From Candidatus Saccharimonadota bacterium (GTDB lineage: Bacteria; Patescibacteriota; Saccharimonadia; Saccharimonadales; UBA4665), in assembly GCA_028286385.1 (NCBI GenBank), contig JAQBRQ010000039.1, forward strand, positions 1-38,879: a stretch of 38,879 nt of DNA. The letters run 5' to 3'. The notes beneath the pieces were generated by a model that was not told the origin of the DNA, ran no database searches, and saw nothing but the letters and a program-made list of their open reading frames with translations. Made by a program: the position numbers and the translations under genes. Each line of letters starts with the position of its first letter. Position 1 is the first letter of the stretch. This document shows positions 374 to 37,566 of the stretch, piece by piece.

Positions 374-682
374 ATGAAACAGACGCCCTTGCCTCCTACT
401 AAAGGACAAACGACGCCGGTTAAATCGGTGGGTAATGATCAGCAGGCCAGCTATGAAGCTCGTGCTCAGTTTTTCTCTGCCGCTTTGAACATGAGTTGGC
501 AATTAGCTATCGTGGTGCTCGTGCCAATCATTGGCGGCTTCGAACTTGATAAGCGGCTCGATATGCTGCCGCTCCTTACAATTGTCGGTTTTCTGCTGGC
601 TATGATCGGCATGGCAGTAGTGGTCTGGCGCCAAATGCAGTTGAATAGCCCAGGCATCCCGCCGAAGGGGCACCACTCATGA
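374..682 (+). CDS. AtpI/AtpZ-like membrane protein, first gene of atp operon
   Basis: A 102-residue protein with a polar N-terminus (about 1-35) and two hydrophobic segments (about 38-60 and 65-88). The hairpin carries GGFELDKRL after the first segment, the pattern of the small membrane proteins that precede atpB in many ATP synthase operons (ATPase_gene1/AtpZ-AtpI type, proposed assembly factor or Mg/Ca channel). It ends with TGA overlapping the ATG of atpB by four bases, so it is translationally coupled. Its own start has no Shine-Dalgarno; TATACT lies eight bases upstream. Assignment to AtpI versus AtpZ is not certain. Confidence 0.75.
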   Translation: MKQTPLPPTKGQTTPVKSVGNDQQASYEARAQFFSAALNMSWQLAIVVLVPIIGGFELDKRLDMLPLLTIVGFLLAMIGMAVVVWRQMQLNSPGIPPKGHHS

Positions 683-1545
683 TTGGTGGCTTACTAGCAC
701 GTTTTGCCGAAACCGGGCCAACAGTTCACGTTGCGCCAGCTGGTGTATTCGAAATCGGTGGTTTCACTATTACCAACTCGATTCTTTATGGTTGGATCAG
801 CACCCTGTTTATAGTCGCTTTTATGATTTGGGTCAGCCGCCAGGTCACCGTTAAACCCAAGGGTGGCGTTGTGCAGTTCGTGGAAGCCGGCGTCGAATTC
901 ATAAGCAATCTGGTCGAAAACGCTTTTGACGACAAAAAGATTGGCCGCAAGTACGTGCCGTATTTTGTGACGGTCTTCTTCTTTATCATTCTCAATAACT
1001 GGCTTGGGTTACTACCATTTGTCGGTGGTGGGTTCCACTCCGGCGAAAACCCACTGCTACGACCATTTACCGGTGACTTGAATGCAACACTGGCCATTGG
1101 CGCATTTACGATGCTCACAGTGTATACCGCATCCATTCGCGAATCTGGCGGCCCCATCAAATACCTGCGCCACTTCTTTATTGGTAGTCCCTGGAATCCG
1201 CTGTACTTTATAATTGGCTTGCTCGAAATGTTCACCGACCTCACGCGCGTACTCAGCCTGTCGCTTCGTTTATTCCTCAATATAACCATCGGTGAGATCG
1301 TCATTAGTGTCTTCTCGTATCTTGGCAGTGTTGCCGCGCCATTGACTGCCCTGCCGTTCACCTTACTGGAAATACTTGTTGCTGCCCTGCAAGCCTACAT
1401 TTTTACCGTCCTAGCTACTATGTACCTGGCAATCGCTGTTAATCACTCCAGCGCCCACCCCGAGGAAGAAGACTTGACCGAAGATGACGTTCCTGCAACA
1501 ATGGTGCCACAGGCTACCGTTCCCGGAGGAAGTGTCAGTGGGTAG
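679..1545 (+). CDS. atpB: ATP synthase subunit a (F0)
   Basis: Membrane subunit a, 288 residues, which forms the proton half-channels beside the c-ring. The signature helix near residues 190-210 contains SLSLRLFLN, with the essential arginine at about residue 197, followed by a conserved Gly-Glu. There are about five to six hydrophobic segments. The last 30 residues are acidic and then polar (SAHPEEEDLTEDD), a cytoplasmic or loop tail longer than needed for function. The start overlaps the preceding stop (ATGA). Confidence 0.97.
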   Translation: MIGGLLARFAETGPTVHVAPAGVFEIGGFTITNSILYGWISTLFIVAFMIWVSRQVTVKPKGGVVQFVEAGVEFISNLVENAFDDKKIGRKYVPYFVTVFFFIILNNWLGLLPFVGGGFHSGENPLLRPFTGDLNATLAIGAFTMLTVYTASIRESGGPIKYLRHFFIGSPWNPLYFIIGLLEMFTDLTRVLSLSLRLFLNITIGEIVISVFSYLGSVAAPLTALPFTLLEILVAALQAYIFTVLATMYLAIAVNHSSAHPEEEDLTEDDVPATMVPQATVPGGSVSG

Positions 1546-1598
1546 TTTTATTTTTGGTTTTAAACAAGTAATTAATTATAAGGAGCAAGGTAAATAAC

Positions 1599-1832
1599 AT
1601 GATATTCGCAGCCGCAGACGCAGTTAATACAGCAATTATCGGTAAAGGTTTAATGATTGGCGGTGGTTTTATTGGCCCAGCTATCGGCATTGGCCTTATT
1701 GGCGGTAACTACTTGCAGGCCGTCGGTCGCAACCCTGAAGCAGCTAAGTTCCTCGGTCAGGCTTTGATCTTTGTGGCTATTGTCGAATTGTTCGGTCTAT
1801 TAGCCTTCGCATCAATCTTCATCGTCAAATAA
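1599..1832 (+). CDS. atpE: ATP synthase subunit c (F0 ring)
   Basis: A 77-residue hairpin proteolipid. The first helix is glycine-rich (GGGFIGPAIGIGLIGG), the polar loop is GRNPEA, and the second helix carries the ion-binding carboxylate Glu63 in VAIVELFGLLAF. The glutamine and the serine/threonine after Glu that make up the sodium site of Na+-type c subunits are absent, so the ring is most likely H+-driven. A Shine-Dalgarno AAGGAG lies 5' of the ATG. The following atpE-atpF gap contains a large palindrome, which could protect or process the atpE mRNA. Confidence 0.97.
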   Translation: MIFAAADAVNTAIIGKGLMIGGGFIGPAIGIGLIGGNYLQAVGRNPEAAKFLGQALIFVAIVELFGLLAFASIFIVK

Positions 1833-1834
1833 GT

Positions 1835-1960
1835 GGGAGGATTCCAGAAAATGCACATTTTGCCCGAAACACTGCGCTCCGCGCTCACCGTACCTTGCAG
1901 TACGGCTCGCTTGCGGTGCTCATCTTTCGACCAAACTGCACTATTTTATGAAACCCTCCT
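1835..1960. repeat. ~126-bp imperfect palindrome between atpE and atpF
   Basis: The intergenic region folds on itself almost completely. The centre is CCGTAC-CTTGCA-GTACGG (1888-1905). Outward, the arms keep matching with small bulges: TGCGCTCCGC against TGAGCACCGC, CGAAA against TTTCG, AAAATGCACATTTTG against the complement of CAAACTGCACTATTTT, and GGGAGG (1835-1840) against CCCTCC (1954-1959). The result would be one long RNA hairpin between the c and b subunit genes, or a MITE/REP-like mobile palindrome. No second copy is in this window. A 41-codon frame (1851-1976) runs through it and overlaps the atpF start. Confidence 0.7.
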
Positions 1961-1972
1961 TGAGGTGAGTGT

Positions 1973-2509
1973 ATGACAACTCTCGTAACTACGTTTGCGG
2001 CTGAGAGTTCGTCAGGTTTGGGCGCGCTTGGCGTTGACGGCAAGGCGTTCCTGATTCAGCTGGTCACGTTTGTGCTGGCCTACCTAGTATTGCGTCGTTA
2101 TGCCTTTACACCGATTCTCAAAGTTTTAGAAGAACGGCGCCAAAGAATCGAAAGCGGTGTAACACTTGGCGAAGAAATGCAAAAAGAACGTGCCAAGCTC
2201 GAACAGCAGATCGCCGAGGCATTGCAAGAGAGTCGTAAAGCGGCCGACGGCATTCTCGTTAGTGCCCAAGAAAGCGCTCGCCAGGCCATTCGCGAAGCCG
2301 AAGAGAAAGCCCGTGCTAAAGCCGACGGCATTCTGGCCGCCGCCGAGGATCGCATTAAGCAAGACACCGCTCGGGCTCGCAAGCAGCTCGAAAAAGAGCT
2401 GGTTAACCTAGTCTCCGATGCCACCGAAGCCATCATCCAAGAAAAGATCGACGCTAAAAAAGATGCCGCACTCATTGAGCGCGCACTGAAAGGCAGCGCA
2501 AGCGCATGA
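1973..2509 (+). CDS. atpF: ATP synthase subunit b (F0 stalk)
   Basis: 178 residues: one N-terminal membrane helix (about 25-45, FLIQLVTFVLAYLVLRRY) followed by a long charged, alanine-rich helix (about 55-165) that would form the peripheral stalk dimer. Homodimeric b is likely, since there is no second b gene in the operon. AGGTGAG lies just before the ATG. The end overlaps atpH by four bases (ATGA). A preceding 41-codon frame also ends in an ATGA overlap with this start. Confidence 0.96.
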   Translation: MTTLVTTFAAESSSGLGALGVDGKAFLIQLVTFVLAYLVLRRYAFTPILKVLEERRQRIESGVTLGEEMQKERAKLEQQIAEALQESRKAADGILVSAQESARQAIREAEEKARAKADGILAAAEDRIKQDTARARKQLEKELVNLVSDATEAIIQEKIDAKKDAALIERALKGSASA

Positions 2510-2913
2510 AGACCGCTCGAACCCGTATCGCTAACGTCATCGCCGACAACACTTTAAAAAGTGGTGTGTCTAAGACCTACGTTAACGAAATCGCCGCTTA
2601 TTTACTAAGTGAGCAACGGGTTGGTGAGCTGGATTCATTGCTGCGTGACGTGCAGGCCGATTGGGCGGCAGCCGGTTTTGTAGAGGTGATTGCCACCAGC
2701 GCTCACCCGCTCACCGCGGCCATTAAAGCCGATATCATCAAGCAATTCAAGCAGCTCTACCCAGAGGCCAAGAAGATTATCGTCACCGAAGCGCACGATC
2801 CAACAATTTTAGGTGGCGTGCGTCTGAGCCTGGCTGATAAGCAGCTTGATTTGAGCGTTGAAGCAAAATTGAATAAGTTTAAGCAATTAACCACTGCAGG
2901 AAAGGATACGTAA
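2506..2913 (+). CDS. atpH: ATP synthase subunit delta, shortened N-terminal domain
   Basis: 135 residues against about 175-180 in the family. The C-terminal domain is recognisable: an alternating strand/helix region and the signature DPTILGGVRLSLADKQLD-SV (about residues 102-120), ending in a short helix KLNKFKQL. The N-terminal helical bundle, which normally caps the alpha subunits, is only about 55 residues instead of about 105. The start is fixed by the ATGA overlap with atpF, so the shortness does not come from a misplaced start. It joins the b dimer to F1. Confidence 0.92.
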   Translation: MKTARTRIANVIADNTLKSGVSKTYVNEIAAYLLSEQRVGELDSLLRDVQADWAAAGFVEVIATSAHPLTAAIKADIIKQFKQLYPEAKKIIVTEAHDPTILGGVRLSLADKQLDLSVEAKLNKFKQLTTAGKDT

Positions 2914-2919
2914 AGACCC

Positions 2920-4470
2920 GTGGCTGAACTATCGATTACAGAATTATCAGATGATATCCGAGCAGCAATTGCTCAGTTAAAAGAACGACCAGAAATCGAA
3001 AACGTCGGTGTTGTTACCCGCGTTGGTGATGGCATTGCTTGGATCTATGGTCTGAGTTCCGCTGGTTATAACGAAATGCTCGAAGTCGAGGGCGCGCAAG
3101 GTCAGAAAGTTACCGCTTTTGCTCTTAACCTCGGCCAAGAAGAAATTGGCGCCGTACTCCTCGGTACCGACATCGAAGTAAAGGCCGGTGCTAAAGTCCG
3201 CCTCAGCGGTTCCGTGCTGGAAGTGCCTGTTGGTCCTGAGCTCGTTGGTCGTGTGGTTGATCCTTTGGGCCGTCCCCTCGATGGTGGTGACCCAATCAAG
3301 ACTAAGCTGCGCAGCCGTGTTGAACGCCCTGCTCCCGGTGTCTTAGCCCGTAAAAGCGTCCACGAACCAATGATGACCGGCTTAACTGCCATTGATGCCA
3401 TCGTGCCAATCGGCCGTGGCCAGCGTGAGCTGATCATTGGCGACCGTCAAACCGGTAAAACAGCTATCGCTGTTGACACCATGGTTAACCAGGCTAAGCA
3501 AAAAACCGGTGTTATCAACGTCTACGTTGCCATCGGTCAGAAGCTATCTAAGATTGCTGCTTTGCAAGAGCGCCTCAAGCGCGAAGGCGTTATGGACCAG
3601 ACCATCATCGTGGCTACCAGCCCGGCTGATCCAGCAGCCATGCTCTACCTGGCGCCATACGCCGGTGCAGCCATGGGTGAATACTTCCGCGACAACTCAC
3701 AGCACGCCTTGATCATTTACGATGATCTTACCAAGCACGCTGCGGCCTACCGCCAAATGTCACTGCTTCTGCGCCGCCCACCGGGCCGCGAAGCCTACCC
3801 AGGCGATGTTTTCTACTTGCACTCCCGCCTTTTGGAGCGCGCCGCTAAGCTCTCGGATGATCTCGGTGCCGGTTCTTTGACGGCTCTGCCGATCATCGAA
3901 ACCCAAGCTGGCGATATTTCTGCCTACATCCCAACCAACGTCATCTCGATCACCGATGGTCAAATCTTCCTGGAAACTAACCTGTTCTACCAGGGTATTC
4001 GCCCGGCTATCTCGGTCGGTCTATCTGTTTCGCGTGTTGGTGGTTCTGCCCAAACCAAAGCTATCAAAGCTGTTGGTGGCGGCCTTAAGCTTAGCTTGGC
4101 TCAGTACCGTGAACTTGCGGCATTCAGCCAGTTCTCGACCGACCTCGACCCAGAAACCCGCCAAACCATCGAGCGCGGTCAGCGCCTAACCGAACTGCTC
4201 AAGCAGCCGCAGTACAGCCCATACGCAATCTGGGAAATGTACAGCAGCCTACTGGCAGCTACCAAGGGTTGTTTCGACGCTGTACCAGTCGAAAAAATCA
4301 AGCTCGCCGAAGAGGCTCTGCACCGCGAACTCAAGAGCAAGCATCCTAAGGTTATCGAAGCCCTTAACACCGGTGGTAAACCATCTGACGCCGACAACGA
4401 AGTTGTCATCAAGGTTGCTAAAGCCATCGCCGACAGCTACAAGCCCCTTAAGAAAGCCAGCAAGGAGTAA
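2920..4470 (+). CDS. atpA: ATP synthase subunit alpha (F1)
   Basis: 516 residues, full length. It shows the N-terminal beta-barrel (about 25-95), Walker A GDRQTGKT (174-181), the [12 protein letters not shown] segment and the [10 protein letters not shown] region with the arginine finger. It forms the non-catalytic sites of the alpha3beta3 hexamer. The start is GTG in the context GACCCGTGGCT, which recurs at atpG. An upstream AGGAAAGGA is the only Shine-Dalgarno candidate. Codon use is strongly biased (CGT/CGC arginines), as expected for a highly expressed gene. Confidence 0.98.
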
Positions 4471-4477
4471 TTGACCC

Positions 4478-5340
4478 GTGGCTAGTACAATCGTTCTTAA
4501 ACGCAAGATCACCTCGATCAAAGGCACTCGCCAGATCACCAAGGCGATGGAGCTGGTTTCGGCCAGTAAACTGCGTCGTGCACAGGAACGGGCTCAACGT
4601 AGCCGCCCTTACCGCGACATGGCCTACGATCTGTTGACCCGTTTGAACGCTATTAGCGAAGTTGAACGTCAGCCACTATTCCGGAAGCGTCCCGTAAAGA
4701 ATCGCTTGTACGTCATCATTACCAGTAACACCGGCTTAGCTGGTGCTTACAATGCCAACGTCCTCAAGCAATTAACGACTGGCCTACGCGAAGACGAAGC
4801 CCAAAAGGTTAAAAGTCACGTCATTACCATCGGCAGCAAAGGTGCGCAATTCGTCCGCCGCCTGAGCGAAGTTGATCTGATGGCCGCCTATCCCCCTTTG
4901 GGCGACCAGCCGAGCGTCAACGACATCCGCCCTATCCTGAATACGGTCATTGAACACTATAAAGAGAGCAAAGTCGACGAAGTCCGAGTGATTTACACTG
5001 CCTTCAAGTCAACAGTGTCTCAGGAAGTTAAGAGCCTCCAGCTCTTGCCTGCTGCCGGCGTAGGGGACGAAAGCCCAAATACCGCTATGAGTAACTTCGA
5101 GCCAGACGTCGAAACCGTCATCGATCAGGTGGCAATTCGCCTCGTCGAAGCCCAGGTTTGGCAAGGCGCGCTCGAGAGCCTGGCATCTGAACACGCCATG
5201 CGCATGCTAGCTACCAAAAACGCCACCGATAACGCCAACGACCTGATCAAAGACTACACTCTGGAGCTGAACACTGCCCGACAGGCAGCCATAACCCAGG
5301 AATTAGCCGAAATCAGCGGTGGAGCGGAGGCTATGAATTC

Positions 5341-5344
<4 letters not shown>
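4478..5344 (+). CDS. atpG: ATP synthase subunit gamma (F1 rotor)
   Basis: 288 residues. Both ends of the rotor coiled coil are conserved: SIKGTRQITKAMELVSASKL near residues 13-32 and the C-terminal helix with MRMLATKNATDNANDLI. The middle Rossmann-like region (about 75-210) is present. The start is GTG preceded by AAGGAG about ten bases upstream. The stop TGA overlaps the ATG of the unrecognised gene that follows, an unusual neighbour, since atpD normally comes next. Confidence 0.97.
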
Positions 5345-7181
<1,837 letters not shown>

Positions 7182-7183
7182 AC

Positions 7184-7612
7184 GTGATTCATTTCCAACT
7201 GGTAGCCCTCAGCGGCATCAAGTTTGACGAAGACGTCTATGAAGTCACCTTGCCAACATTAGACGGCGAAATCGGTGTGCTACAGCACCACATGCCGCTG
7301 GTTAGCGTGGCTAAAAACGGCGTGATCGCTGTTCGCCGCGCTCCCAAAGATACCGATGCCCAGCGCGAATTTTTTGCCACCAATGGCGGCGTCATCGAAG
7401 TAACCACCGACAATACACTCCGCGTACTCGTTGATGAAGCCGACCATGCCGAAGGTATTGACGAAGCCGAAGCCCAAAAGGCCTTAGAACGCGCTCAAAA
7501 GATGAAAACCGAAGCCAAAGACCAAGTTAGCCTTGAGCATGCTCAGACTATGGTTGATCGCCAATCAGTCCGTTTGCACGTCGCCGGCCTCAAGCGCCGC
7601 ACCCGTAAATAG
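7184..7612 (+). CDS. atpC: ATP synthase subunit epsilon (F1)
   Basis: 142 residues. The N-terminal beta sandwich (about 1-85) has the family pattern FD-E-VYEVTLPTLDGEIGVLQHHMPLVS. The C-terminal helical pair (about 88-135, DEAEAQKALERAQKM) is complete, so the auto-inhibitory element can form. The start is GTG two bases after the atpD stop, with AGGAG upstream. It ends the operon; I see no clear terminator in the 23 bases before the convergent gene. Confidence 0.95.
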   Translation: MIHFQLVALSGIKFDEDVYEVTLPTLDGEIGVLQHHMPLVSVAKNGVIAVRRAPKDTDAQREFFATNGGVIEVTTDNTLRVLVDEADHAEGIDEAEAQKALERAQKMKTEAKDQVSLEHAQTMVDRQSVRLHVAGLKRRTRK

Positions 7613-13352: not shown

Positions 13353-14546
13353 TTACTGTGCTAGCGCGATGGCACAGGTTTGGCAGTCATCTTCGACTTC
13401 GAATTCGGTCATAAATTGCTTGCTGGCTCGGACCCACGGTTCGAGGTCACGGAAGCCGATAAAATCCGCAGCTTCGCGAATAGCCCAGCCCGCCCAACCC
13501 TGGATGCGAACGCCACCCCAGATAACTGCTGCCCAGTAAGGCCCAGCTGGAATAACCGTGATTGGCGCAACGGCATCATAACTCTTCAAGCGCTTGCCCG
13601 ATGCTTTACGACGCAAATTATTGGCAACAAAGGCGCCATCGCGCAGCGCGGTTTGCGCGAGACCGCTGAACGGTGTATTGGCATTGTCACCGATTACGTA
13701 AATATTTTCTTCGGATTGCAGGTAGACATCGACGGCAACTTTGCCGCGGCCCATAATCACAAAACGGTTTTCGGTAAAAAATGGATGATTGGTAACGCCG
13801 GCTGTCCAGATGACGGTGTGGCTGCGGATCGGTTTGCCGCTAACCATTAGCTGGTCAGCGCTAGCGGCTTGAACCGTTTTGCCGATGTACAATTTGACGC
13901 CGAGTTTTTTGAGTCGGCGGCGAACAATCCTCGACGTTGCTTTTGGCAAACGCGGTAGTAATCGGGGAGCTGCTTCGATCAAATCAACGTGTACGTTGCG
14001 CTCCGGCAAGCCGTGATTTTTCATAATATGCTTTAGATAACCAGGGAGCGAACCGGCTAATTCGATGCCGGTTGGCCCGGCGCCAACGACGACGTAATGG
14101 TTATCCGGCCGGTGGTCATCGAGTAATTGTTTATGTAAATGAGCTTTAAACTTGGCAACCTCACTCTGTGATTTGATGCTATAAGAATATTCCTGCATGC
14201 CCTCGATGCCGAAATAATTAGTGACGACGCCCAATCCGATAATCAGCGTATCGTATTCGTATGACTGGCCGCCACTCGACGACACGGTTTTGGCTTTGCG
14301 GTCTAGTGTTGCAGCCGTATCCTGCACAATCGTGATGTCTTTGTCCATAAAAATTCTACTGAGCGGAATGCTAGAATTGGAACGACGTCCGCCTGTGGCT
14401 GTGTGATACAGCGTTGGGTAGTAGCGCAGATCGGTATCGTCGCTGAGCAGTGTTACATCAAAGCGCGGGTCATCTACCAGTTCCAGCGCGGCTTTGACAC
14501 CACCAAATCCACCACCGACGATCAGAACTCGTTGTTTGTTAGCCAT
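13353..14546 (-). CDS. Type II NADH dehydrogenase (NDH-2)
   Basis: About 397 residues. Two Rossmann folds are visible: the FAD-binding VLIVGGGFGGVKAA at the N-terminus (glycines 11-16) and the NADH-binding YVVVGAGPTGIELAG in the middle. The FAD-contacting ENIYVIGDNANTP and AQTALRDG segments follow, and the C-terminus has amphipathic, membrane-facing helices. The enzyme would oxidise NADH and reduce quinone without pumping protons, feeding the Cyo oxidase encoded in the same window. The start at 14546 (MANKQRV) was chosen over an in-frame upstream codon at 14615 because the FAD fold begins at once and TATAAT lies ten bases upstream. It is divergent from the FAD-linked dehydrogenase. Confidence 0.93.
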   Translation of the reverse strand: MANKQRVLIVGGGFGGVKAALELVDDPRFDVTLLSDDTDLRYYPTLYHTATGGRRSNSSIPLSRIFMDKDITIVQDTAATLDRKAKTVSSSGGQSYEYDTLIIGLGVVTNYFGIEGMQEYSYSIKSQSEVAKFKAHLHKQLLDDHRPDNHYVVVGAGPTGIELAGSLPGYLKHIMKNHGLPERNVHVDLIEAAPRLLPRLPKATSRIVRRRLKKLGVKLYIGKTVQAASADQLMVSGKPIRSHTVIWTAGVTNHPFFTENRFVIMGRGKVAVDVYLQSEENIYVIGDNANTPFSGLAQTALRDGAFVANNLRRKASGKRLKSYDAVAPITVIPAGPYWAAVIWGGVRIQGWAGWAIREAADFIGFRDLEPWVRASKQFMTEFEVEDDCQTCAIALAQ

Positions 14547-14556
14547 ATTGCTTATG

Positions 14557-14586
14557 ATTATACAATTAGTAAGCTGGTATCTCCAA
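14557..14586 (-). promoter_or_regulatory. Promoter of NDH-2
   Basis: TTGGAG (14581-14586), an 18-base spacer and a perfect TATAAT (14557-14562) on the minus strand. The ATG lies ten bases downstream, so the leader would be only two to four bases. Confidence 0.6.
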
Positions 14587-14629
14587 GAGCGCTTGCTTTT
14601 AGTGGGTAAAAACACTTAAGCTTATTACA

Positions 14630-31444: not shown

Positions 31445-32299
31445 CTAGCGCACAAATGAGTCGATAGAAATCGTCAGGCACAGCAGAGAGATCACTATTA
31501 AAGAACGCAAAAACATTTTGCGCCCCCATAGTGTCTCGTCTTTAGCTTTGAAGCTGCGGATGCCGAGTGCGAACCAGCTCAATCCGAGCAATAGCGCGAC
31601 AATCAGGTAGCCGCAGCTGGCGTAGCCGAAGACCGTCAACAAAGCCGAGGTTATCGTAAAGCCAACGATGTATAGCAAGACCTGAATCTTAGTGATTCTC
31701 ATACCCTTTTTCACAGGCAGCACGGGGATTCCGGCGGCTGCATAATCTTTAAGCCGGTACATAGCAATGGCGTAAAAATGAGGCATTTGCCAAAAAACAA
31801 GTATGGCAAATAGAATAAGGGCTGCCGTGTCGAGTCGACCAGTGACGGCCGTGTAGCCAGCAACTGGCGGCACTGCTCCAGAAATTGTTCCCACTAGCGT
31901 TCCATGGACTGACCGCCGCTTGTAATAACCGTACAGTACGACGTAGGCGACGAAACCAAGCAGTCCGATGTAGAGCGTAACCAAATTAGTGTAGATAGTC
32001 AGAATAAGCACGCCTAACAGGCCGAGTATTGTTCCGAATATAAGGGCGTTTTTCCCGGAGATTGCTCCGCTTACCAGCGCACGCTTTTTGGTACGGGCCA
32101 TTAGCCGATCGATGTCACGATCCATGTAATTGTTGAATACGCAGGCCGAGCCAATCACCAGTGATGTGCCGGCAAGCGTAGCCAGCAGCAATTCAAAATC
32201 AACCCCGCCCTGTGCAGCTAAGAAAAAGCCGGCGCAAGCGGTTAGCAAATTGCCTCGGATGATTCCTGGCTTCGTGAGAGAGTAATATGCCTTGATCAA
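31445..32299 (-). CDS. cyoE: Protoheme IX farnesyltransferase (heme O synthase)
   Basis: 284 residues with eight to nine membrane helices. The polyprenyl-transfer Asp-rich motif NNYMDRDIDRLMARTKKR and the second motif YRLKDYAAAGIPVLPV are present. It adds a farnesyl group to heme b to make the heme O of the bo3 oxidase. The start is TTG, two bases after the cyoD stop. It is the last gene of the cyo operon. Its substrate, heme b, must be imported or made elsewhere, since no heme synthesis gene is in the window. Confidence 0.95.
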   Translation of the reverse strand: MIKAYYSLTKPGIIRGNLLTACAGFFLAAQGGVDFELLLATLAGTSLVIGSACVFNNYMDRDIDRLMARTKKRALVSGAISGKNALIFGTILGLLGVLILTIYTNLVTLYIGLLGFVAYVVLYGYYKRRSVHGTLVGTISGAVPPVAGYTAVTGRLDTAALILFAILVFWQMPHFYAIAMYRLKDYAAAGIPVLPVKKGMRITKIQVLLYIVGFTITSALLTVFGYASCGYLIVALLLGLSWFALGIRSFKAKDETLWGRKMFLRSLIVISLLCLTISIDSFVR

Positions 32300-32301
32300 A
32301 A

Positions 32302-32691
32302 CTATGGCTTAATTAGTTCATCACGGATGATGGAGTTGTCGGTTTCGCTTGGCGTGTGGCCATGGTTGTAATCGAGGTTGTCCATAATCCACAGCGTGCC
32401 AATGGCTACAATTAGCACTACAACCATCATAAAGCTAAAGACAATCAGGTTCCAGCGCGGCTTAGATTCGTTGCCGAGGTGCAGGAAAAATATCAATTGA
32501 ATAAGTAACTGCACAAGAGCGAGTGCGATAAGCGCAAACACCAAGTCCCAGCCTGTAAATACATGATGCACCACTAGGCTGTAGGCAGCGAGGGTCACAA
32601 CGACTGACAATATAAAACCAGTCGCGTATGACTTTAAAGTTCCCTGCCCGGCACCATGGTCGGGCACTACGTTTGGTGCGTGTTTATTCAT
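32302..32691 (-). CDS. cyoD: Cytochrome o ubiquinol oxidase subunit IV
   Basis: 129 residues, with three membrane helices after a polar N-terminus. The conserved core GFILSVVVTLAAY and QLLIQLIFFLHL is typical of CyoD. It helps assemble the oxidase and stabilise the CuB site of subunit I. The start overlaps the cyoC stop by four bases (ATGA). Confidence 0.95.
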   Translation of the reverse strand: MNKHAPNVVPDHGAGQGTLKSYATGFILSVVVTLAAYSLVVHHVFTGWDLVFALIALALVQLLIQLIFFLHLGNESKPRWNLIVFSFMMVVVLIVAIGTLWIMDNLDYNHGHTPSETDNSIIRDELIKP

Positions 32692-33254
32692 ACGGATGTC
32701 GCTCCCATAAGATAGACAATTGTGAAAATAAAGATCCAGACGATGTCTAAGAAGTGCCAGAATAAACTCAGCAACGTCAGTCGTTTAACGGTGGACGGCG
32801 TCAGGCCGCGGCGCATAACCTGGACCAGTAACACGACAGTCCACAGCAGGCCGGTCGCGATGTGTAACCCATGAGTACCAACCAGCGTAAAGAACGAAGT
32901 CAAGAAGCCGCTGCGCGTCCAGCTGTTACCTTCGTGCACTAGTTTGGTGAACTCGATCATTTCCATAGACAAGAAAGCAATTCCTAGGCAAAAGGTTACA
33001 GCAAACCAGTTAATGACTTTTACTTTGTCTCCGCGATGAGCGGCCAACATAGCTAGGCCACAGGTAAAGCTGCTTGTGAGCAGGATGAGTGTTTCGGCCA
33101 GCACAAATGGCAGGCTAAATAATTCGCGGGCTGATTCACCGCCGTACGTGTTGTTATGTAACACGGCGAATGTCGCGAATAAACTAGCGAACAGTACGCA
33201 GTCGGTCATGATGTAGACCCAGAAGCCGAAGACGGTTTTGGCGCTGTTGTTCAT
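32688..33254 (-). CDS. cyoC: Cytochrome o ubiquinol oxidase subunit III
   Basis: 188 residues, five membrane helices, the short form of subunit [30 protein letters not shown] opens the protein and the segment [17 protein letters not shown] follows later; both are typical of CyoC. The start overlaps the cyoB stop by four bases, with AAGGGG upstream in cyoB. Confidence 0.96.
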
Positions 33255-35215
33255 GCTGGTTGCCCCTTGTGCGCACTGTCTAATTTGGCCAATTCGGCAG
33301 CCGTAATGGTGTACTCGGTTTCATCATCTGTTGAACGGATAATCACGGACGCAATAATACCAAACAGAGCAAGCGGAATCAGCCAGATAATGTGCCAGAT
33401 AACCGCGAAGCCAAAGATAAAGGCAAAACCGGCTATCACTATACCCATCCCGGTGTTTTTGGGCATCCCGATGTCTTCGTAATGCGGTTTTGCGGCGGTT
33501 GTTTTGGCTTGCTTGTCGGCCCAGAACTGATCGCGGTCAGTAACGTGCGGCGTAACCGCAAAGTTATAGAATGGCGCTGGCGAGACTGTTGACCACTCTA
33601 GCGTGCGACCATTCCATGGATCACCGGTGGAATCAAGGTTTTTGTTTCTTTGCCAAATACTGACGACAAATTGCAAAATCTGGAAGCCAATGCCTAGTAA
33701 AATAATCAGCACGCCGACTCCCGCAACGGCAAACAGACCTTGCCAGCCGAGGGACTTGTCGTAGTGGTCAAGGCGTCTGGTAGCACCCATCAAACCAAGA
33801 ATGTAAAGTGGCGTAAAGGCTGTGGTGAAGCCAATAATCCAGCTCCAAAAAGCGTACTTGCCGAGCCGTTCGTTGAGTGCAAAGCCGAAGATCTTAGGGA
33901 ACCAATAGGTGATGCCGGCGAAGTAGCCGAACAGTACACCGCCAACAATCATCATGTGAAAGTGTGCCACCAAAAATAGGCTGTTATGGACTTGGAAATC
34001 AATGGCTGGAACCGACATGAGCACCCCAGCTAATCCGCCAATAGTGAAGATCACCACAAAACCCAAGAACCACAGCATCGGCGTGGCAAACTTAATCCGT
34101 CCCCTGAACATAGTGAACAGCCAGTTAAATATCTTAACGCCAGTTGGGATGGCAATTACACCGGTCATAATACCAAAGAAGGCGTTGACGTCGGCCCCGG
34201 CACCCATCGTAAAGAAATGGTGCAACCAGACAATAAACGATAGAAACGAAATTGCGCCCAACGCCCAGACCATCGAGGCGTAGCCGAACAGACGCTTGCG
34301 CGAGAAGGTCGCCACAATCTCCGAGAAGATGCCAAAGGCCGGCAGCACCAGAATGTAGACCTCTGGATGGCCCCACGCCCAAATCAGGTTAATGTACATC
34401 ATAGGATTGCCGCCAAAATCAGAGGTAAAGAAATGAGTGCCAATGGTACGATCCAACGACAACATCGCCAGCGTTGCTGTTAAGATCGGAAAGGCGAAGA
34501 TTACCATAATCATGCTGCACAGGACGCTCCAGACGAACATTGGCATTTTCATGAGCGTCATGCCTGGCGCGCGCATTTTGAGGATTGTCACAAAGAAGTT
34601 TATACCCGATAGTAAGCTACCGACACCGGCAATCTGCAAACTCCATATCCAATAATCTACTCCGACTCCCGGACTGTACTGTAACCCTGAAAGCGGCGGG
34701 TAAGCTAACCAACCGGCGGCCGAAAACTCACCAACAATTAGCGATAAATTAACCAGCGCCATGCCTGCTGCAAACAGCCAAAAACTGATTGAGTTCAGGA
34801 ATGGGAACGCCACGTCGCGGGCGCCGATCTGCAGCGGCACAATAAGGTTAATAAGCCCGAACATCAATCCCATGGCTACGAAGAAAATCATAATTGTGCC
34901 GTGGGCCGAGAAGATCTGCTGGAAGTGATCGGACGTTAAGATGCCTGTCGAGTCACCAACTGAAGTCGCCTGTTGCGCGCGTAAAAGCAGCGTATCGGCC
35001 ACGCCCCGCAGTAACATCACCAGCCCAATAATAATGTACATGACGCCGATTTTTTTAGGATCGAGCGATGTTAGCCAATTCTTGTAGAGCCATTTCCAGC
35101 GCTTCGTATAGGTGAGCAGCGCAATAATACCAAGGCTAGCAAGCAGCATCGTCATGACACCGCCGAGTACGATGATATCGTGATGGAACGCGTCGAGCCC
35201 TAACTTGCCTAGCAT
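33251..35215 (-). CDS. cyoB: Cytochrome o ubiquinol oxidase subunit I
   Basis: 654 residues, about 14-15 membrane helices. All key residues are seen: heme ligands His105, His418 and His420; CuB ligands His283, His332 and His333, with the cross-linked Tyr287; quinol-site Arg70, Asp74, His97 and Gln100; D-channel Asp134 and Asn141 with Glu285; and K-channel Lys361. It should therefore reduce O2 and pump protons. From memory, long stretches match E. coli CyoB almost word for word ([25 protein letters not shown]), unlike what a deep-branching CPR protein would show. Confidence 0.98.
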
Positions 35216-35230
35216 AGATGGTTCCTTGGT

Positions 35231-36139
35231 TTAGTTTGCATGATGATCCATCTCGTACATACTCATGCCCTGCATCTCCTGCTCCGGACCCATGTATTTC
35301 CCTATTACTTTATCATACAGCTTATGCTCGCCGCCGGCATAGTAAGCGACCGGGTTGTTGGTGCTCGATTTGATGAGCTTGGCGTATTCGTTCATGTCGA
35401 GCTGCTGCGGCGATTGTTTAACGCCGTTTACCCACTTCCGGAAATCGGACTCCGAGCTCGATTTTGCCACAAAGCTCATCTTGGAGAACTGCGGTCCGCT
35501 GAGGTTTGCCGATGAACCCCTAAAAATGCCTGGCTCGTCAGCCATCAAATGCAGTTGTGTCGACATGCCGGCCATGGCATAAATCTGGCCGCCAAGTTGT
35601 GGAATCCAGAATGAATTCATCGCGGCATCTGCTGTTACATGGAAGTTAATAGGAGTCTTTTCGGGAAATTGCAGATAATTGACGGTCGCGATTCGTTGCT
35701 CTGGATAAATAAACAGCCACCTTGATTCTAAGGCGATAACTTGCACGTTAATTGGCTTAACGTCTGACGCAAGGTGCTTAAAGGGATCAAGCTCATGACT
35801 GCTGTTCCAGGTAATAACTGACAGCACGACGATTATAATCGTCGGGATGCCCCACCAGATGGTTTCAGCAAGGATATTGCGGTCCCAATCAGGTGTGTAC
35901 TTAGCTTTGGCGTTACTTTCGCGGTACTTCCAGGCGATGCCGAATGTCAGGGCAAATACGGGCACAACGATTAATAGGCCCAGTAGCGTCGTAAAAACAA
36001 TTAAATCACGCTCTTTTTGAGCTATAACCCCTTTTGGATCGAGAACCGCAATGTTACTATCGCGTAACAAAAAAACTGTCGCTCCCAGAGCTGCAATCGA
36101 CAGTAAAGCAAAAATAACGATTTTAGATTTTTTGTTCAA
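35231..36139 (-). CDS. cyoA: Cytochrome o ubiquinol oxidase subunit II
   Basis: 302 residues. A first hydrophobic segment (about 6-25), two membrane helices (about 45-70 and 92-112) and an extracytoplasmic cupredoxin domain (about 125-250) are seen. The CuA cysteines are absent (GSSANLSGPQFSKM where C-x3-C would be), so electrons come from quinol, not cytochrome c. E. coli CyoA is a lipoprotein, but no lipobox cysteine exists here. The tail is rich in Met and His (MQGMSMYEMDHH), a possible copper-binding end. The start is TTG with GAGGT upstream; TATAGT lies at 36177-36182. Confidence 0.96.
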   Translation of the reverse strand: MNKKSKIVIFALLSIAALGATVFLLRDSNIAVLDPKGVIAQKERDLIVFTTLLGLLIVVPVFALTFGIAWKYRESNAKAKYTPDWDRNILAETIWWGIPTIIIVVLSVITWNSSHELDPFKHLASDVKPINVQVIALESRWLFIYPEQRIATVNYLQFPEKTPINFHVTADAAMNSFWIPQLGGQIYAMAGMSTQLHLMADEPGIFRGSSANLSGPQFSKMSFVAKSSSESDFRKWVNGVKQSPQQLDMNEYAKLIKSSTNNPVAYYAGGEHKLYDKVIGKYMGPEQEMQGMSMYEMDHHAN

Positions 36140-36182: not shown

Positions 36183-36350
36183 GCATTTTGTCCGTGGTTC
36201 CACCCTGTTATTTGTTATTGTTGAGGCCTATGTTTACTGCTTATGCTATATTATACACCTAATTGTCAAGTATAAAATTCATAGCGAACGTTAACTATGG
36301 GGCCCTATAGTGCAATCACATAAGTGGTAAATAGAAGGAGGATAAAGTTT

Positions 36351-37001
36351 ATGAAGAATATCATCAAGAAAGTAAGCATTACAGGAGCAACGGTGCTGGG
36401 TAGCGTCTGCATGGTTGTTAGTGGCGTGGTCGGAGTTGCATCTGCCGATAGCATTGACCTGACCGGACCATACTCACTTAATAGGATTTCGCGACACGTG
36501 GACATCAATCGTATAGTAGATAATCGTAATAATGTGGTTGTCCGCAATAACTCAGTGCAGACAGCGCGATCTGGTGATGCGATTGTCACCCACAACACCA
36601 GGGGTGGTGACGCATTCACTGGCAACGCCCGCAACGAAAACATTACTAGTACCCACGTAGGCATCAGCAACGGCATTGGTGGCGCAGGCTTCGGTGGCGA
36701 TTACGGCGGTGGCTGTGGCAGTAGCTGCGGTGGCGGCTGTGGCGGTGGCTGTGGCGGCGGTTACGGCGGTGACTCTATCCACTTCACCGGCCCGGGGTCA
36801 GAAAATAAGATCGAAAGCAGCTACAGGAATACGAGCCTTGTTACCAATACCAACAATGTTGCTGTTGATAACAACAATCTCCAGTATGCTACGAGCGGCA
36901 ACGCCATCGTCAGCGGTAACACCTTTGGTGGTAGCGCATTGACTGGTGACGCTGTCAACACAAACAGAACTAGCACGGACGTAAACATCGTTAACCGCTA
37001 G
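36351..37001 (+). CDS. Secreted two-repeat protein with CxxxC-spaced glycine linker
   Basis: 216 residues. A signal peptide (1-32: KNIIKK, hydrophobic core, ASA before Asp33) is followed by two homologous repeats, about 33-107 and 141-216. Both have the order DSI-(D/H)-(L/F)-TGP-S-N, then an Asn-rich ladder NN-V-V-NN--Q-A-SG-AIV--NT-GG-A-TG-A-N. Between them is a glycine linker (108-140) with four cysteines at exactly every fourth residue (122, 126, 130, 134). The repeats look like a beta-solenoid or amyloid-type ladder. There is no LPXTG-like anchor or membrane end, so the protein is released or self-assembles. AAGGAGG lies nine bases before ATG 36351; an upstream in-frame ATG at 36324 would destroy the signal peptide pattern. 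Function unknown. Confidence 0.85.
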   Translation: MKNIIKKVSITGATVLGSVCMVVSGVVGVASADSIDLTGPYSLNRISRHVDINRIVDNRNNVVVRNNSVQTARSGDAIVTHNTRGGDAFTGNARNENITSTHVGISNGIGGAGFGGDYGGGCGSSCGGGCGGGCGGGYGGDSIHFTGPGSENKIESSYRNTSLVTNTNNVAVDNNNLQYATSGNAIVSGNTFGGSALTGDAVNTNRTSTDVNIVNR

Positions 37002-37005
37002 TAGA

Positions 37006-37028
37006 GCAAGAGGCATCCTGCCTCTTGC
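37006..37028 (+). terminator. Hairpin after the secreted-protein gene
   Basis: A perfect 9-bp stem GCAAGAGGC/GCCTCTTGC with loop ATCCT, starting four bases after the stop codon. It is followed by ATAAAAAA, not a T run, so it may act as a 3' stabilising hairpin rather than a classic terminator. Confidence 0.5.
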
Positions 37029-37034
37029 ATAAAA

Positions 37035-37068
37035 AATGCGGAGGGCCTCCTATGAGGCTCTCCGCATT
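37035..37068. terminator. Long hairpin, terminator-like on the minus strand
   Basis: A 15-bp stem AATGCGGAGGGCCTC/GAGGCTCTCCGCATT with one G-T wobble and loop CTAT. On the plus strand only ATTATT follows; on the minus strand a clean T run (complement of 37031-37036) follows. It sits nine bases before the AAAGGAGG ribosome site of the next gene. Confidence 0.55.
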
Positions 37069-37089: not shown

Positions 37090-37305
37090 ATGGCATACGC
37101 AAATCCAGTAGAGATACAAGTTATATTAGCGAGCGTCGATTACCCTGTCAGCAGGGATACGCTCGTTGTGGCCGCCGAAGACGCCGATGCTGACGAGTCA
37201 GTTATCGCTATGATACAGGAGTTGCCTGACGGCCAGTACGAAACTCAAACTGAAGTCAAGGAAGCGCTCGACGCAATAGATTCATCAGATTCAGATTCGC
37301 GCTAA
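37090..37305 (+). CDS. DUF2795-family small protein
   Basis: 71 residues. YANPVEIQVILASVDYPVSRDTLV is the DUF2795 pattern (ANP-EIQ-L--VDYP-S---L), followed by AEDADADESVIAMIQELPDGQYETQTEVKEAL, also conserved in that family. It is acidic and soluble. The family is often found among stress-response genes, but its activity is unknown. AAAGGAGGT lies four bases before the ATG, the strongest ribosome site in the window. The start was set at 37090, not at an upstream ATG that would cover the hairpin. Confidence 0.85.
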   Translation: MAYANPVEIQVILASVDYPVSRDTLVVAAEDADADESVIAMIQELPDGQYETQTEVKEALDAIDSSDSDSR

Positions 37306-37386: not shown

Positions 37387-37566
37387 ATGGCAAAAAAGAA
37401 CAGTAACCGCGGTTTGGCAAGCGCCGATGAACAAACTCGCAGGGATGTCGCGAGCAAAGGCGGTCGAGCAAGCAAGGGTGGGTTCGCTAGCATGGACCCA
37501 GAAAAGCAACGCGAAATCGCTCGAAAAGGCGGCCAGTCCAGCCACGGCGGCGGTCGACGCAGCTAA
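37387..37566 (+). CDS. KGG-motif (stress-induced) small protein
   Basis: 59 residues with repeated Lys-Gly-Gly motifs: SKGGRASKGGFASMDPEKQ and REIARKGGQSSHGGG, the KGG/GsiB-YciG type repeat (EIARKGG-SHG). Very hydrophilic, probably disordered when dry; the family is linked to desiccation, heat or acid stress in other bacteria. AAAGGAGGG precedes the ATG by six bases, similar to the DUF2795 gene 81 bases upstream, so both are set up for strong translation. Confidence 0.82.
   Translation: MAKKNSNRGLASADEQTRRDVASKGGRASKGGFASMDPEKQREIARKGGQSSHGGGRRS

Follow-up and report, generated by a model that had tools for sequence, protein, structure and literature searches.

In FapC, each imperfect repeat forms one Greek-key cross-β layer held by conserved Asn/Gln residues, variable linkers join the layers, and the repeat follows a 27-position motif, gasGN-x-G-x-N-x-aaG-x-gNqQN (PMC12392863). 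The two-repeat protein described here is encoded in a stretch of 38,879 nucleotides, called the window as a whole. With FapC and FapB of Pseudomonas, it shares predicted export, imperfect repeats whose linkers vary, conserved Asn, Gln, and Gly residues within every repeat, and, at the level of its family, a related second repeat protein as the likely nucleator. It differs from them in that the Saccharibacterial repeat has 75 aa, occurs twice per subunit against three times in FapC, and follows another motif, while the family is found in Patescibacteria and its partner is a four-repeat, membrane-anchored protein. The full FapC motif was found in 0 of 174 family open reading frames (ORFs) and is lacking from the window protein, and no FapF pore or FapD protease genes were recognized by eye among the window neighbors.

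The likeness to curli CsgA/CsgB lies in the combination of a secreted major subunit with a surface-tethered relative and in β-repeats with conserved Asn/Gln; the Saccharibacterial repeat is, however, three times longer than the curlin repeat. The Pfam model Curlin_rpt matched neither the window protein at E ≤ 1 nor 18 relatives at E ≤ 0.1, and the curlin motif S-x5-Q-x-G-x2-N-x-A-x3-Q was found in none of the 174 family ORFs. As both the FapC and the curlin motifs are absent, the window protein belongs to neither family, and the best reading of its repeats, by analogy, would be a FapC/curli-like logic without membership in either. Gram-positive sortase-anchored proteins and pili offer a third comparison: one-repeat relatives combine an LPxT-S/G motif, a transmembrane (TM) segment, and a basic tail with an adjacent sortase gene, whereas the window protein lacks a sorting signal and pilin domains are absent.

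The two-repeat gene and its product

The window gene encodes a 216-aa product (Table 1). An in-frame GTG at 36324 is an alternative possible start, but the ATG is preferred because the position of the Shine-Dalgarno (SD) sequence points to it. The earlier note on this DNA had taken the strong ribosome site as a sign of abundance; the 7-nt match is present, but matches of at least 7 nt precede 4 of the 35 window genes, including both genes that come after this one (at 37090 and 37387). The site is therefore strong without being unique, and abundance does not follow from it. The signal peptide proposed in the same note is of the Sec type, ending in ASA-D, and suggests export via Sec. The extra Cys within it, C20, was considered as a lipoprotein site and rejected, as Val stands at −1 and there is no lipobox. 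The protein contains 18% Gly and 14% Asn, and its C-terminus (...DVNIVNR) directly follows the second repeat, with no LPxTG-like motif, TM segment, and basic tail. Two strong hairpins downstream, without a clear U-run on the + strand, may act as a terminator and suggest that the gene is a single-gene unit. A promoter scan gave nothing above chance, and an Rfam search gave no match.

Table 1 Features of the window gene, its product, and related loci.
Feature	Position	Strand	Basis
CDS, secreted two-repeat protein, 216 aa	36351..37001	+	ORF and translation
Shine-Dalgarno AAGGAGG, ATG 9 nt further on	36335..36341	+	7-nt match
Signal peptide, residues 1-32, KK..hydrophobic..ASA-D	36351..36446	+	Sequence; N-terminal design common to all aligned relatives
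Repeat R1, residues 33-107	36447..36671	+	Alignment; AF2 strands 43-73, 77-80, 93-107
Gly-rich linker without regular structure (residues 108-140), modeled by AF2 at low confidence	36672..36770	+	AF2 and sequence
4-residue tandem GGG-[F/Y/C]: F114, Y118, C122, C126, C130, C134, Y138	36690..36764	+	12-bp DNA repeat; pattern unique in own genome
Repeat R2, residues 141-215	36771..36995	+	Alignment; AF2 strands 151-181, 185-188, 201-215
Pair of strong hairpins (37006-37028 and 37035-37068), where the transcript probably ends	37006..37068	+	RNA fold −45.6 kcal/mol, z −8.9
Cohesin-like/dockerin neighbors	L053:7-3789 (own genome C22); L034:7829-11651; L052:7289-11150		Pfam and by eye

R1 and R2 align in register and without gaps, with 40 of 75 residues identical, whereas 20,000 shuffles of R2 against R1 gave a mean of 6.7 identities (sd 2.4) and a maximum of 19, which confirms the two 75-residue repeats that had been proposed. 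The repeat length is fixed at 75 residues. Among 22 divergent aligned family proteins, 19 columns are invariant, most of them occupied by Asn, Gln, Gly, Ala, or Thr, and on the long strand of the repeat every second position tends to be conserved, a period of 2 (p = 0.0018 and 0.006; Asn/Gln/Gly positions).

An AF2 model of the window protein, built with 22 aligned sequences, had a pTM of 0.36 and a mean pLDDT of 49; the strand pattern was identical in R1 and R2, and the linker was structureless. Structure prediction, which had been suggested as a check, thus returned the repeated strand pattern but at low confidence. As for the β-solenoid or amyloid-like blocks proposed in the earlier note, a duplicated β-repeat with period-2 Asn/Gln/Gly conservation is real, but a model of this pLDDT establishes neither fold.

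The repeat family and its gene clusters

No Pfam or NCBIfam model matched the window protein or its relatives (18 relatives in the Pfam search), a sequence search of the PDB gave chance matches only, mostly to viral capsid and spike chains, and no description of the family was found in the open-licence full texts searched. The repeat defines an undescribed family, absent from Pfam and NCBIfam, whose members have a signal peptide, two in-register repeats of ~75 aa with invariant N/Q/G, and a C-terminus at R2, all of which are found in the window protein.

When the repeat was sought in other Saccharibacteria, homologs with the plan signal peptide-R1-linker-R2 were recovered in many of them: within the taxonomic family of the window organism, 30 of 93 genomes had matches; there were small-type proteins in 56 of 393 genomes of the class sample (E ≤ 1e-10), and matches in 17 of 287 genomes of the phylum sample, with the best scores inside the class. 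The repeat family is thus common across the class Saccharimonadia, but few other Patescibacteria have it. A contig search with an alignment of five family proteins as the query returned named records that were mostly Saccharibacteria MAGs, plus two contigs labeled Parcubacteria, and the genomes of the same taxonomic family with matches are likewise Saccharibacteria MAGs, which supports a Saccharibacterial origin of the window; the window protein as a single-sequence query matched no genome contig. No relatives were found in the phages, plasmids, and viral contigs searched, so nothing suggests that the gene came from a phage or plasmid. In a distinct subfamily, the first repeat is interrupted by a Trp-rich insert, DSWNPDSWQ..GxSFSxWW... 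(L081:3094-4110, L094:4954-6225, L091:5374-6366).

Forty-eight of the 393 class genomes encode a larger four-repeat protein (600-790 aa). It begins with a signal peptide and an N-terminal part rich in Trp and Tyr, ends with a TM helix, and has another β segment (...FIGTINIYGNLNGDIL...) after every repeat. A separate two-repeat ORF is also encoded in 44 of these 48 genomes, as found by reading the 48-genome list against the 56-genome list, and in all 44 pairs the small gene lies directly upstream of the large gene on the same strand, with a gap of about 30-530 bp between match ends. Counted from the small-type matches, the large partner is directly downstream in 44 of 56 genomes; among the distinct small proteins with several repeats in the loci retrieved, 39 of 56 are encoded beside a large gene. 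The profiles of the small and large families align with each other (hhalign 98%, E 3e-14). Many Saccharibacteria thus keep members of this family, probably surface proteins, as a fixed small/large pair.

AF2 predicted the four repeat cores of the large partner at ~90 pLDDT, with the same strand pattern as the window repeats. Foldseek found no significant structural neighbor in the PDB for the model of either protein; the top-ranked match of both was FapC, with E values of 6.0 and 1.3 that are far from significant, and could serve as a lead only.

The second module of these clusters contains a one-repeat protein with the LPxT-S/G motif, TM segment, and basic tail, usually with four Cys. Its gene is directly followed by a sortase gene in all 14 loci that have it; the small/large pair is also present in 11 of these, and the complete order anchor-sortase-GT2-subunit-large protein is seen, for example, in L075 (3480-8527) and L086 (3779-8417). 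The sortases of the one-repeat loci do not reach the NCBIfam cut-offs for class D and class F. Downstream of the large gene, L086 has a Crp-type regulator gene, identified by Pfam, and L079 and L083 have one by similarity; together with GT2, it hints at a regulated or glycosylated surface assembly. Because relatives end in a membrane anchor or an LPxT-S/G sorting signal, a surface role of the family is indicated, and this part of the earlier claim of a surface or matrix protein stands, whereas host contact and fiber formation would be conjecture.

Proposed assembly of the exported protein and possible role of its linker

We favor, with a probability of roughly 0.45, the reading that the window protein is an exported structural subunit of a Saccharibacterial surface or matrix polymer, bivalent and with one Asn/Gln-stabilized β layer per repeat. 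As an outer-surface building block of Saccharibacteria it is plausible, and it may self-assemble and form disulfides. Sec export and signal-peptidase cleavage would release a mature polypeptide of 18.6 kDa (predicted) with two ~75-residue β modules, the repeats being evident by alignment and the export presumed. The probable fold of a module is a single flat β layer, for which a long strand, tight turns (Ser-Gly, Asn-Thr-x-Gly-Gly, and Thr-Gly), and a return strand are predicted, with alternating Asn/Gln/Ala/Val facing inward. The two layers, held on the flexible Gly linker, may then stack with layers of other copies into a polymer or sheet. In most relatives, as the strictly conserved operon suggests, the four-layer membrane-anchored partner would nucleate or tether the polymer; in the window organism, where the partner is missing from the assembly, the protein would act alone or dock on paralogous repeat proteins. 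The four linker Cys might be oxidized outside the cell, where VKOR is a candidate contributor encoded by the genome, and cross-link subunits covalently. Beside the window gene, no genes specific to the export or chaperoning of amyloids were recognized.

Alternatively, the protein could be a discrete adhesin or ligand-binding protein, whose repeats are self-contained β domains that bind a host-surface or matrix glycan, the linker spacing two heads in a bivalent, lectin-like arrangement with no polymerization. The two-headed plan with a variable flexible linker and the anchored relatives are consistent with this explanation, as are the GT2 gene between the sortase and repeat genes of some clusters and the large partner, in which four modules predicted at ~90 pLDDT are well separated and alternate with other β segments. 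However, no binding domain was matched in Pfam or the PDB, and the conservation lies, as we interpret it, on alternating inward-type N/Q/G/A positions and not on a compact surface site. We hold an adhesin to be less likely than the structural subunit.

The linker bears on how the favored structural subunit would be held together. Its four Cys fall at exactly every fourth residue (122/126/130/134), as had been noted from the sequence, and the register extends beyond them to seven positions, from F114 to Y138, with a GGG-X period of four. The linker DNA (36679-36760) is a 12/24/36-bp tandem repeat, and the Cys spacing is exact because the linker grew as a 12-bp tandem DNA repeat. The spacing alone is therefore no proof of selection, and the 12-bp repeat may have produced the Cys register incidentally. 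The codons have diverged since the repeat expansion (GGT/GGC, TGT/TGC, and two Ser replacing Gly). The GGG-[F/Y/C] pattern has no second copy in the own genome and the CxxxC ladder occurs in none of 21 aligned two-repeat relatives; the Cys linker was found in the window protein only and is not a family trait, while in other subfamilies CxC or CC pairs recur in the linker just after a repeat. The own genome encodes VKOR, which makes oxidation of exported thiols plausible. A plain flexible spacer is the role we would name first, with some hesitation, and inter-subunit disulfide cross-links come second as a tentative proposal, a metal or redox role being a further alternative.

Under the latter, the Gly/Cys tandem would be the functional center (a Cys4 metal cluster, a thiol buffer or redox element, or a heterocyclized RiPP-like core) and the repeats its carriers. 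The regular spacing of the four Cys would suit such a center, and a paralog in the same genome, C22, also has a Cys-rich linker, with a weak resemblance to the heterocycloanthracin family (E 0.0054). That match is nevertheless a low-complexity one, its 17.3 bits falling short of the cut-off of 35; genes for RiPP maturation were not seen in the neighborhood, and the linkers of the closest relatives have no Cys; to our knowledge, an i, i+4, i+8, i+12 arrangement of Cys on a GGG background is no standard metal motif, which also counts against a metal center, and we regard this explanation as improbable. There is similarly little to be said for a disordered, low-complexity Asn/Ser/Thr/Gly-rich secreted filler for envelope hydration or spacing, its repeats kept in composition only: the low AF2 confidence, the high Gly and Asn content, and the lack of a Foldseek match would fit it, but the 19 invariant columns, the period-2 pattern, the fixed repeat length, and the high-confidence prediction of the same module in the partner argue against it.

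Saccharibacteria are ultrasmall, host-dependent bacteria. They might have an undescribed surface-polymer system made of an exported two-layer subunit and an adjacent four-layer membrane-anchored nucleator, joined in many genomes by a one-layer component that is anchored by sortase. Such a system would be functional-amyloid-like, have arisen independently of curli and Fap, and serve host attachment or a protective coat, with a disulfide-locked orphan version in the window lineage. Taken as a whole, this picture is speculative, and we hold it to be doubtful. Type IV pili are the main factors described so far for host binding by Patescibacteria (PMC12206443). A conserved operon with anchored and soluble copies of one unannotated β module would offer a concrete, testable surface structure, and the window protein, if the cross-link reading is true, an example of a covalently stabilized subunit. 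The finding is real and suggests that Saccharibacteria have a larger surface system without annotation so far, of which the window protein would be an unusual orphan member.

Genome and gene neighborhood of the orphan member

The own genome (832 kb) encodes two further repeat proteins, namely C22 (340 aa, two repeats, a Cys/Ala/Gln-rich linker, and 15 Cys outside the repeats) and C32 (135 aa, one repeat). The large four-repeat partner was not found in its assembly, which is 92% complete. The window gene is thus an orphan member, with two paralogs and no large partner in the assembly, and the best-supported assembly model therefore does not transfer directly to it. In a tree of last repeats, where the sequences were too short to place the window protein, the C22 paralog falls in a different subgroup (support 84/94). 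A RiPP or bacteriocin reading of this Cys-rich paralog was rejected, its score being under the cut-off.

The window gene stands alone between a divergent cyo operon and small stress-type genes. Two tiny genes downstream encode a DUF2795 protein (37090-37305, 7e-16) and a KGG stress repeat (37387-37566, 4e-14), with SD matches of 7-8 nt that are among the strongest in the window. Genes for an F1Fo ATP synthase (374-7612), an NDH-2-like oxidoreductase (13353-14615), and a full cyo cluster of cytochrome bo oxidase and heme o synthase (31445-36139) were identified by eye in the window and, on that basis, look like an aerobic respiratory chain in a Patescibacterium.

The neighbors of the C22 subgroup are conserved, with RlmH and a UmuC/DinB-like gene upstream (both named by eye), a convergent membrane-anchored protein, and a protein that has fn3 domains and, at its C-terminus, a dockerin motif. 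The membrane-anchored neighbor has a cohesin-like N-terminus by eye, Pfam matching only its fn3 and CarboxypepD_reg-like parts, and the other neighbor has six fn3 domains before the dockerin (Pfam, 6.5e-6); the two could possibly form a cohesin-dockerin surface complex in Saccharibacteria. Near 42835 of C22 (L056) in the own genome, an exported cupredoxin-like protein (by eye) ends in ...GGGSTTG, a TM segment, and a basic C-terminus and is directly followed by a sortase gene; it is possibly a sortase-anchored copper protein.
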